A stretch of DNA of 64,000 nt from Verrucomicrobiota bacterium (GTDB taxonomy: Bacteria > Verrucomicrobiota > Verrucomicrobiia > Verrucomicrobiales > DEV007), in the NCBI GenBank assembly GCA_020630975.1, contig JAHDID010000023.1, forward strand, positions 1 to 64,000, given 5' to 3'. Shown here piece by piece: positions 28,503-47,104 of the stretch. The notes under the pieces are model-generated. The model made no database searches. It saw only the letters and a list, made by a program, of their open reading frames with translations, and was not told the origin of the DNA. Position numbers and translations under genes: made by a program. The first letter of the stretch is position 1. Every line of letters begins with the position of its first letter.

Positions 28503-29300
28503 TTAGGGAGCTCGATTGGAGATAAAGTCTTTCAGATAAATCTTATCCTCCCCACTGATGCGATCCAGCGGAACCTCACGAGTCGATTGGTCAGGCAGAC
28601 GCAACGTCACCTGAGAAGGCTCGGACTTAATCAACGCCGCTGTGATCTCGAAACTCCCAGTGCTGTCTCGCCAAACCCGCTCTTCTCCAGGCTCCCCTTC
28701 ATAAGTGTAATCGAAAAAATCCGGCACAGGCTGTAGCTTGCCAGGCGACTTGAATACAGAAACCTCGTACATCTCTCGCTTGGAAATTTGATCAACAAAT
28801 CCACCGTCATGATGAGACAGCATCAAGACACGAAAAGTAGGATAACGAGAGAATAGCTCCGAACGATACAGCGACATCGCTTTATCTTCTTTCACCCACG
28901 AGTCGAGCAATTCTATCGGAGCCTCTTCTCCTGTAGGACCACGCACATTCGCTTCACCCGTCCATGGTCCACCTCTGGTCGACTCTGTCCCGAGAATTAA
29001 ATCAGCCCCCATGTTTTCATTGTGTCGCTCGCCCGTTTCGTGGTTCTTGTCGAGGTCTACCCACACTGCAAACCACGAATAAATATCGCCCAGCTCACTC
29101 ATAGGTCCCCAACCCTGGTAAGTGATCAAGAGGTGCCCACCCTGATAGGCAGAGAATGTCACACTGCGCAGATCAAACGCTTTCACAGGCCTCTCACCAA
29201 ACTTGGCATCACCTTCTGGATCTTGGAAGGTCTGCTCCTCTGCCCATAGAAATGCGGCACAGGCTACGATCGTGATGACAAAAGACCTCAAAATATTCAT
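28503..29300 (-). CDS. Secreted protein with C-terminal SHD1 domain
   Basis: A 265-residue exported protein. A signal peptide (MNILRSFVITIVACAAFLWA) precedes a beta-rich central region that I do not recognise (about 25-200), with ITYQGWGP and WVDLDKNHETG, the latter resembling a calcium-binding DxDxNxxTG turn. The last 60 residues form an SLA1-homology (SHD1) domain: RVWRDSTGSFEITAALIK, VTLRLPD, VPLDRIS, and YLKDFI. SHD1 modules are very common in exported proteins of the PVC group. The gene follows the tRNA-Sec gene on the same strand after 19 bp. Confidence 0.75.
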   Translation of the reverse strand: MNILRSFVITIVACAAFLWAEEQTFQDPEGDAKFGERPVKAFDLRSVTFSAYQGGHLLITYQGWGPMSELGDIYSWFAVWVDLDKNHETGERHNENMGADLILGTESTRGGPWTGEANVRGPTGEEAPIELLDSWVKEDKAMSLYRSELFSRYPTFRVLMLSHHDGGFVDQISKREMYEVSVFKSPGKLQPVPDFFDYTYEGEPGEERVWRDSTGSFEITAALIKSEPSQVTLRLPDQSTREVPLDRISGEDKIYLKDFISNRAP

Positions 29301-29319
29301 CGGAAATCACGAAAAATAG

Positions 29320-29413
29320 CGGAGAGGGAAGGAATCGAACCAACCTCGGCAAGGATCACTTGTCGACAACGGTTTTGAAGACCGCGGGGACCACCAGGCA
29401 CCCATCTCTCTCC
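29320..29413 (-). tRNA. selC: tRNA-Sec (anticodon UCA)
   Basis: The minus strand reads GGAGAGAG at the 5' end (29413 leftwards) and CCCTCTCC before the discriminator G. These pair over eight bp with one A/C mismatch, the long acceptor typical of bacterial tRNA-Sec. The anticodon arm is GCGGT-CTTCAAA-ACCGT, giving anticodon TCA, as in E. coli selC. A long extra arm (TCG A CAAG / CTTG C CGA) follows, then a TTCGATT T loop. CCA is not encoded. The T stem is weak, with two T-T oppositions, which is odd. A tRNA-Ser or tRNA-Trp suppressor is unlikely given the long extra arm and extended acceptor. Confidence 0.88.
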
Positions 29414-45888: not shown

Positions 45889-46170
45889 CTACTTCAAACT
45901 CTCAGCGATCTCTCTGGCGCGCGCTTGAGAGTCTGCCGAAAGAGATGAAAGAGGCAGGGTGAATTGATTGCCCGCCCTCTTTACGATCGTCAGTTGCTCA
46001 TCGATCAGCGATTTAAATTTCGCTTCTATACTAGCGCCCTTAGCATTGGTCCAAGCTTCGAAATCCAGCCCGGCCAGGACTTACTCCTGCTTTCTCTCCC
46101 AGGTTCGTAGTTTTTCTTTTTCGACCCGCATCAGAAAGTAACGCTTCGAAACCTCATTAAGCGAACGGAC
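45889..46170 (-). pseudogene. SHD1-domain gene remnant with an in-frame TAA
   Basis: On the minus strand one frame reads VSKRYFLMRVEKEKLRTW and ERKQE, meets TAA at 46081-46083, then continues VLAGLDFEAWTNAKGASIEA, KFKSLIDEQLTIVKR and FTLPLSSLSADSQARA before a stop at 45889-45891. The second part is an SHD1 domain like that at 28503-29300, and the first part is a charged helix that usually precedes it. No start or N-terminal domain remains upstream, and a second stop lies at about 46171. The gene looks broken by nonsense and truncation. Readthrough is unlikely since the codon is TAA. Confidence 0.7.
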
Positions 46171-46263
46171 TTATGTCAATTACCAGAATTAGGGCCCCTG
46201 ATCCTGGCTGTGTCAACACAGACAATGTACGCGAGGTTGTCCTGCGTCGTCGTGTTAGGCTGT

Positions 46264-46632
46264 TCATTGGAATCGCATATCACATTCGGCTTTGATTGCG
46301 TCGAAACTTCTATCGAACTCAGTATGCTTCGCCAAATCGTCGAGAGCTGAAAGAACAGTAACCACCTCTGGATCTAAAGGCCTTTCCATTCTTACAGCAA
46401 TCTCTTGAAATAATCCACGCCAAACATTCACATAGCCCTTTGAGTAAGCAATAGCCATCGAGTGTAGTTGCTCAGTCCAGATCAGCAATAGATGAGCATA
46501 TGCAATTGCATCAATTGGTAGGATATTTAAATCTCTACACCTGTAAAGAGATCCGGTTATCTCATCAACTAACCGGCGCATCTCTTGTTCGATGACAGAA
46601 TACCCCGCATCACTTTCCAGAATTCTATTCAT
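46264..46632 (-). CDS. Hypothetical protein (orphan ORF)
   Basis: A 122-residue protein starting at ATG 46632 (MNRILESDAGYSVIEQEMRR); a TTG nine bases upstream is an alternative. It is predicted to be almost entirely helical, with no signal peptide or membrane segment. I do not recognise a family. Its base composition looks more AT-rich than that of neighbouring genes. It starts 5 bp after the stop of the thioredoxin-like frame, so it could be coupled to that gene, or it may be an insertion in a decaying locus. GTTAGGC (46254) and ACCTAAC (about 46667) flank it in inverted orientation. Confidence 0.5.
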   Translation of the reverse strand: MNRILESDAGYSVIEQEMRRLVDEITGSLYRCRDLNILPIDAIAYAHLLLIWTEQLHSMAIAYSKGYVNVWRGLFQEIAVRMERPLDPEVVTVLSALDDLAKHTEFDRSFDAIKAECDMRFQ

Positions 46633-46637
46633 ACAAC

Positions 46638-47063
46638 TCAAGTTCTTTTCTGAGAACCTAACAAATTAGTTATTCTACCATGAAAGGCTCCTACACCGGA
46701 CGGCGCCCAATAGGGCAAGCAGTGCGCACTGGGACAGGTAGGGCCACTTCTCGGGAAAAAGCCACCGTGCGCAACAGGCGGCGTTTTTAGGAAAATCTTA
46801 TCCTCTCGATCAACAAACACTGTCACACCAATGCGAGGCAAATCACGAAAAGCAGCCTGACCGGCCACCACACAAGCTCCTCATGTCGACTTACTATCGT
46901 TATGAAAGAATAGCAGCGGTAGATCTTCTTCGAGCGCTTTGGCCTGAGCTGCCTCTAGCTGATCGAGGGAAAAAATACCTCGTGGTAAACGAGGCGCTGA
47001 AAAGCTGATACTCGTTAACAACAAAAATCCAACGGCCAAAATAGTGGGGCGAATCACTTTCAT
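46638..47063 (-). CDS. Thioredoxin-like exported protein read through an in-frame TGA: candidate selenoprotein or pseudogene
   Basis: The frame starts at ATG 47063 with a strong purine-rich ribosome-binding site (AGGAAGGGG). It has a signal peptide (residues 1-22) and then LPRGIFSLDQLEAAQAKALE and LPLLFFHNDSKST, which resemble the start of a thioredoxin fold. The TGA at 46881-46883 is residue 61 and is followed in the same frame by GACVVAGQAAFRDLP and VTVFVDREDKIFLK, the next strands of that fold. The site therefore reads U-G-A-C, a CxxC-like redox motif with Sec in place of the first Cys. If UGA is Sec the protein has 141 residues. After KTPP the sequence no longer looks thioredoxin-like, so C-terminal decay or rearrangement is possible. 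It follows the MoxR/DUF58 operon by 41 bp. Confidence 0.6.
46848..46883 (-). promoter_or_regulatory. SECIS-like hairpin after the in-frame TGA
   Basis: Counting U of UGA as 1, positions 15-33 on the minus strand can fold as GGUGGCC - GGUCA - GGCUGCU (seven pairs, four of them Watson-Crick and three G-U). The apical loop is GGUCA. The bases G15 G16 U17, G19 C20, G22 G23 U24 C25 and G27 are identical to those of the E. coli fdhF SECIS, in which U17, G23 and U24 contact SelB. The UGA-to-loop distance is also the same (18 nt here to the GG). This is read by eye; no folding programme was run. Confidence 0.55.
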
Positions 47064-47104
47064 CCCCTTCCTGTAAACAATTCAGCAAAAATCCTCAAGC
47101 ATTA

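Follow-up and report, generated by a model that had tools for sequence, protein, structure and literature searches.

An open reading frame (ORF) with an in-frame TGA in the genome of a Verrucomicrobiota bacterium (GenBank assembly GCA_020630975.1, contig JAHDID010000023.1; the first 64,000 nucleotides of this contig, positions 1 to 64,000, were analyzed and are referred to here as the window) would be the 5' part of a gene from a new selenoprotein family. Judging from sequence comparisons, this TGA is very probably a genuine selenocysteine (Sec) codon of an exported thioredoxin-like selenoprotein family found in Verrucomicrobiales. The family is apparently uncatalogued, as judged by Pfam, NCBIfam, the table in PMC13188914, and a literature search; individual members may already carry an annotation in public databases. 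We have high confidence in the account as a whole, i.e., a new UxxC selenoprotein family and a window copy of it that has been broken by a cassette-like insert.

In the proposed scheme, the family would consist of exported oxidoreductases with a thioredoxin fold, a U-x-x-C site, and, mostly, a small SHD1-like domain. In the intact members, SelB and tRNA-Sec would decode the UGA as Sec with the assistance of a stem-loop; the Sec residue would attack, and the Cys three residues further on would resolve. In the relatives without Sec, a Cys would substitute for it. In the window copy, the integron integrase encoded in the same genome would have put a cassette-like insert of ~520 bp into a non-standard G|TT site, with loss of the latter part of the thioredoxin fold and separation of the SHD1 domain.

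The in-frame TGA and its homologues

The window ORF starts with an ATG at position 47063 of the minus strand, immediately preceded by GGAAGGGG, the ribosome-binding site that had been proposed in an earlier sequence-only reading of this DNA. The TGA at 46883-46881 is codon 61, and the frame is open on either side of it until the stop TGA at 46640-46638, which yields U61-G-A-C64, with Cys64 three residues beyond U61. Rereading the sequence thus recovered both the two minus-strand ORF halves lying in one frame and parted by the TGA and the UxxC motif at that site, as described earlier. The part of the gene that belongs to the family (46663 to 47063, minus strand) comprises a signal peptide, the initial portion of the thioredoxin fold, and the U61-G-A-C64 site, and extends to the edge of the insert; matches to the family profile cover positions 46683-47063, and a scan of the six frames of the window gave an envelope of 46716-47075 (iE of 6e-22). 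The predicted Sec codon (46881 to 46883, minus strand) aligns with TGA codons in homologues.

A first homologue search, in which the read-through product was compared with 141 genomes (its own and related ones), produced matches in 25 of them. The 32 matches listed include 21 whose only stop is a single TGA, 1 with a TGA and a TAG, 1 with two TGA codons, and 9 with none. In an alignment of 23 sequences, the window TGA shares its column with the TGA of other members, and the same column holds a Cys in L037 and in the short g19 relatives, which we take to be from Akkermansia. More widely, Cys at the Sec site is seen, e.g., in L037, L025, L030, G366, G240, G287, and G145. Residue 61 therefore shows among homologues both states that the sequence-only reading had named as support, a Cys and an aligned TGA, and because the TGA is conserved among homologues, its presence in the window is more than chance. 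Conservation of the UGA in homologues, together with its replacement by a Cys codon in other relatives, is one of the patterns by which bacterial selenoproteins are recognized. The main suggestion of that reading, a thioredoxin-like protein with UxxC in which the TGA encodes Sec and for which no catalogued selenoprotein family is found, is thus backed by evidence at the level of the family.

As a control for bias, a query was built solely from the sequence downstream of the TGA. It retrieved 21 loci, all 21 with TGA at the site, from records titled Verrucomicrobiales, Verrucomicrobia, Akkermansiaceae, or Roseibacillus, part of which had already been matched by the read-through product. In the survey of the order, all 30 of the best-scoring loci have U-x-x-C, with a profile that was derived mostly from TGA forms. 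The intact members have a signal-peptide-like start followed by a thioredoxin-like region with U-G-P-C or a similar site, and most of them end in an SHD1-like part (W-T-N...G-K...). In a phylum-wide sample of 387 genomes, profile A6 matched 27 genomes at an E value of ≤1e-10; rows with TGA in this sample were confined to the order, and none of the 7 matching genomes outside the order had a TGA.

Stem-loop, selection, and selenocysteine machinery

There are 33 distinct TGA contexts, 28 of which were aligned; L031, which has a 3-nt shift, was left out, as were four contexts from the source genome itself (C33, C40, and C31 twice) that are not in reference form. Supplied with no structure, RNAalifold predicts a single hairpin at columns 15-33 counted from the T of the TGA (46851 to 46869, minus strand, in the window), with both-side changes in 4 of its 6 pairs. 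In the corresponding 7-pair stem, 84.7% of the cells in the 28 contexts can pair, versus 18.4 to 57.7% when the stem is slid by 1 to 3 columns. Changes on both sides are seen in 5 of the 7 pairs, a count reached by 4 of 500 shuffles, and the covariation score of the stem was reached by 0 of 500; pair 19-29 is unpaired in 17 of the 28 contexts. The loop starts 18 nt past the UGA and contains a G in all 28. A hairpin of this kind after a UGA constitutes the bacterial SECIS element, and a stem-loop just past the UGA, a further hallmark of bacterial selenoproteins, is present in the family. The window copy, read by hand, has standard pairs at all 7 positions of the family stem, three of them G-U. 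Folded singly, the window stem-loop is no better than its shuffles (z of -0.50); among three relatives folded in the same way, two gave z values near -2 and one gave -1.24.

Downstream of the TGA, all 10 chosen pairs of relatives show purifying selection. The dN/dS ratio downstream of the TGA, the low value of which had been suggested earlier as a check, is 0.09 to 0.24 in 10 of 10 pairs, and that upstream is 0.08 to 0.81; these pairs were picked for closeness and have members in common, so that they are not independent. The window copy is without a close orthologue, its nearest relative being 38% identical over 82 columns.

The tRNA-Sec gene, which had been placed 17 kb from the ORF, was located ~17.5 kb away by both ARAGORN (29319-29411) and Rfam (29321-29413), i.e., at 29319 to 29413 on the minus strand. 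Its Rfam score is 58.6 bits (gathering score, 47), and it is the sole tRNA gene that ARAGORN calls within the window. Among the 15 matches to the Rfam tRNA-Sec family in the genome (7.14 Mb in 158 contigs), it alone scores above the gathering score; the other 14 are presumed to be ordinary tRNAs. Absence of selA, selB, or selD was to have counted against Sec insertion; all three genes are present in the genome above their cut-offs, with scores of 522.4 bits for selA and 301.1 bits for selD (each above the curated cut-off) and, with its neighbor in frame, 296.5 bits for selB (cut-off, 242.25). The selD gene (G000:C77:100264-101181; L048) is part of an open frame 763 aa long, compared to the 311 positions of the model, and is possibly a fusion. 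A separate gene at 28503-29300 of the window, which begins ~20 bp downstream of the tRNA-Sec gene on the same strand, encodes a C-terminal SHD1 domain (PF03983; E value of 9.9e-7).

Co-occurrence with selA was assessed in 386 genomes of the order, 337 of which match profile A1 at an E value of ≤0.001; many of these matches perhaps come through the SHD1-like part alone. The comparison is based on the 150 rows listed, which come from 112 genomes and of which 130 span the Sec site. Among these site-spanning matches, 65 genomes have a copy with TGA, 28 have stop-free copies only, and 4 have copies with TAG or TAA only. One genome, G145, was reassigned to the stop-free group, as its TGA is the terminator and its site reads C-P-L-C. 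The fetched loci were read residue by residue, and the other TGA rows were counted by the presence of the codon. With this reassignment, and among the matches listed, selA is found in 59 of the 64 genomes that have a TGA copy versus 0 of the 29 that have stop-free copies only. The five selA-less genomes with a TGA copy (G077, G248, G325, G354, and G380) are 72 to 96% complete, G248 being the one at 96%. The selA gene is found in 120 of the 386 genomes, of which 61 have no TGA row among the matches listed.

The interrupted window copy

Scanning the six frames of the window with the family profile produced matches to both parts of the gene, with an insert in between. The 3' part (45889 to 46068, minus strand) encodes the SHD1-like domain and matches profile positions 168-232 with an iE of 1.1e-12 (envelope, 46167-45895); it has a recognizable start at 46068 and a stop that ends at 45889, with an in-frame TAA upstream, at 46083-46081. 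The TAA had been seen in the sequence-only reading, where this piece was taken for a neighboring gene, and it is indeed there; the profile match identifies the piece as the 3' end of the same gene. Likewise, the loss of thioredoxin similarity after KTPP is real, and the missing continuation belongs with the SHD1 piece of a gene that has been split by the insert. A simple frameshift had been a candidate explanation of the tail that follows KTPP and was rejected, as no profile match in another frame was found between the two parts at an E value of ≤10. The same scan revealed the second half of the C33 copy in another frame, so the method is able to detect frameshifts.

The insert (46142 to 46661, minus strand; ~520 bp) resembles an integron cassette. 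It is preceded by the G at 46662, which opens a GTTAGGT motif, and a GCCTAAC motif, which would be R'', is found at 46260-46254. Integron cassettes are delimited by the motifs GTTRRRY and RYYYAAC. An ORF of 122 aa (46264 to 46632, minus strand) starts 29 bp inside the insert, with its ATG at 46632, 5 bp beyond the stop of the window ORF. This spacing had been read as a sign of a coupled operon; the distance is as described, and the operon falls away, since the ORF is the insert's own. Its product had no Pfam match when the TTG-started form was scanned and no relative except itself among the fetched loci at an E value of <0.01. The ORF is followed by an attC-like end (46142 to 46260, minus strand). 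The segment 46264-46193 shares 77 to 83% identity with four repeats on contig C49 (E values from 2e-9 to 1e-5), and these repeats lie in an array beside a gene for the integron integrase IntI (G000:C49:25001-45000; L125). This IntI scores 334.9 bits against a cut-off of 265; matches were found in 14 of 14 control genomes, and none of the 14 was above the cut-off. When the insert is aligned with ten array repeats, its attC-like part is seen to end near 46142; the 3' edge of the insert is thus based on alignment and is uncertain by some tens of bases.

When the integron region was searched with a strict attC motif, one site was found, seen on both strands, and none of the array repeats; the pattern allows spacers of ≤130 nt, and the repeats, which are ~150 nt long, were detected by DNA similarity. 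The array repeats are degenerate and lack the canonical motifs. None of the six small ORFs in the array region of L125 had a Pfam match. The insert combines the end motifs with an attC-like sequence common to the array beside intI, the features by which a cassette is recognized. Together, the two gene parts, the attC-like end, and the repeats beside IntI lead to a cassette-like piece of ~520 bp within the gene, probably with IntI as the agent of its insertion. Insertion does not account for everything: some 45 to 55 positions of the family profile are without a match across the split, the reading phase, followed by hand, changes across the insert, and there is the TAA, so that an additional deletion or further decay has to be assumed. 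Given that the second part of the fold is lost and that the SHD1 domain is separated by the interruption, the product of the window copy is probably non-functional, with a UGA and a stem-loop that still look usable. The window copy appears to be a naturally occurring example of a chromosomal gene disrupted by an integron cassette.

Some of these observations could also be accommodated by other readings. If the TGA were a decayed Cys codon (TGT or TGC changed to TGA) in a pseudogene, Sec would never have been inserted there; the window gene is indeed broken, and so is the C33 copy in the same genome. The doubt raised earlier about a pseudogene was therefore justified as far as the broken copy goes, the cause of which is the insert downstream and not a decayed Cys codon. 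The same TGA is found in intact, selected genes of many genomes, where it is accompanied by a covarying stem-loop and tracks selA, and we exclude the decayed codon on the strength of that conservation, leaving it hardly any probability. A functional selenoprotein shortened to 141 residues and co-translated with the next ORF would agree with the intact start, ribosome-binding site, UGA, and 7-pair stem and with the frame that stays open across the edge of the insert. However, the family similarity ends before the part that includes P107 and the next strand of the model of the intact relative L058, described below, the final residues are encoded by the insert, and the SHD1 part is stranded, which makes such a product quite improbable.

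A further possibility is that the gene parts were separated by an ordinary deletion or insertion, or by an assembly join, with no integron cassette involved. The missing middle part, the phase change, and the TAA would fit such an event, as would the lack of canonical motifs in the array repeats and an edge known to within tens of bases. On the other hand, GTTAGGT lies at one edge and GCCTAAC near the other, the ORF starts 29 bp inside, and the attC-like end is common to the repeats beside IntI. We consider this explanation unlikely, with a low but appreciable probability, and prefer the cassette-like insert in a gene of the new selenoprotein family.

Fold, family variants, and known systems

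The structure of the intact relative L058 was modeled with AlphaFold2 from an alignment of 20 sequences that included the window product, with Cys in place of Sec (mean pLDDT of 86.3; pTM of 0.60). The model has a thioredoxin fold at residues 26-146, in which residue 59, the Sec site, opens the helix 60-75 and P107 lies just before a strand; residues 178-232 form a domain of their own, made up of strands and a helix, and the stretch 152-173 is of low confidence. With this model, Foldseek lists thioredoxins and disulfide isomerases first (best E value of 1.3e-4; 9 matches at ≤0.001), and VIA-align retrieves thioredoxins and DsbH-type proteins with Z scores of 9.0 to 10.6 across residues 24-146. 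In the model, the active site of the thioredoxin fold sits where the helix after the first core strand begins. The exported thioredoxin-like protein proposed from the sequence is consistent with this model and with the signal-peptide-like start.

Sequence searches point less clearly to known families. The window protein alone matches no Pfam family at an E value of ≤1. Among 23 members, PF00085 is absent from the Pfam matches at ≤0.1, and there are weak matches to Thioredoxin_7 (PF13899) in 3 members (best E value of 0.027), to Redoxin in 1 (0.017), and to SHD1 (PF03983) in 2 (best E value of 0.011). The name SHD1-like is accordingly tentative, taken from this weak Pfam match and the label used in the sequence-only reading. 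A search of the 23 members, with U read as C, against NCBIfam 20.0, including its selenoprotein models, found nothing at ≤0.01; the best match was RimP (0.021), and the thiol oxidoreductase NF052402 was matched by 1 member at 0.045. A sequence search of the PDB with profile A6 gave a best E value of 0.76.

The source genome encodes several other copies. That on C79 is intact and carries U, and that on C40 has U-R-P-C and is without the SHD1-like part. The C33 copy (G000:C33:116948-117603; L052) has U-G-P-C, together with a frameshift and a TAG within the signal-peptide region; these defects may be sequencing errors. The C31 copy (G000:C31:101756-102436; L053) contains two in-frame TGA codons, reading U-G-N-U-G-P-A, and has lost the active-site Cys, and the C116 copy has a site with neither Sec nor Cys. 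Three other genomes (G275, G267, and G359; loci L109 to L111) encode U-x4-U-G-S-T. A search for stems showed that one of 6 to 8 pairs can be drawn in each of the four double-Sec genes, with its loop beginning 18 nt past the second UGA and thus 27 or 33 nt past the first; this stem is missing from the minimum-energy fold of the stretch in L109, and in L110 other stems are equally long. One stem-loop would lie in range of both UGA codons. In a quick tree, the double-Sec label needs 2 changes, and the starred branches force 2; support is by SH-aLRT only, and several branches, including C31 and its neighbors, are long. On balance, we lean toward a replacement of the redox partner in two separate lineages, each of which lost the Cys after the Sec and gained a second Sec on the N-terminal side of the first, so that an exported thioredoxin-fold protein using a diselenide would have evolved twice. 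Neighboring tandem copies of the family are seen at G016:C180:27077-29197, G014:C6:30438-31796, and G031:C229:2600-3952; the tandem in G016 consists of one Sec copy followed by two stop-free copies.

Many Verrucomicrobiales genomes contain this selenoprotein family, which is unlisted in Pfam, NCBIfam, and the 2026 table and whose genes would be cut short at the TGA by ordinary gene calling. Its natural series of Sec, Cys, double Sec, and neither on one fold bears on why bacteria keep or drop Sec. The 2026 AEM review PMC13188914 counts 119 selenoprotein families and subfamilies; its table carries no SHD1 or Verrucomicrobial label, and the words "verrucomicro" and "SHD1" are absent from its text. 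No description of the new family was found in the accessible parts of PMC12013277, PMC2398784, and PMC4807772.

Among known selenoproteins, the Sec form of thioredoxin (UxxC, PF00085; listed in PMC13188914) is alike in its fold, its Sec-first U-x-x-C site, and its Cys-containing relatives. It differs in that the members of the new family lack a PF00085 match, have a signal-peptide-like start, and usually end in an SHD1-like domain. Exported thioredoxin-like disulfide proteins, of the DsbH type and others, are similar in export and fold, with 2ju5 and 7tkv among the structural matches; the likeness is at the level of the fold, with 12 to 18% identity, and the PMC13188914 table has no SHD1-labeled Sec form. 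Two close Sec residues, as in C31, are known from the UxxU Prx-like, FmdB, and metal-binding selenoproteins (table of PMC13188914 and passages of PMC2398784), which are other families by name and are set apart here on that basis. In contrast to these, C31 has its second Sec on the N-terminal side of the usual position and no longer has the partner Cys; in another lineage, the spacing is U-x4-U.

The insert itself is comparable to integron cassettes found at attG-type sites, with which it shares an ORF with an attC-like end, the G|TT edge, and an IntI in the genome. Cassette insertion at non-standard attG sites has reportedly been described by Loot et al. in 2024. That work is cited in PMC11023631 and PMC12901181, the latter of which also describes it. 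Unlike those cassettes, the window insert lies inside a selenoprotein gene, part of which is missing.
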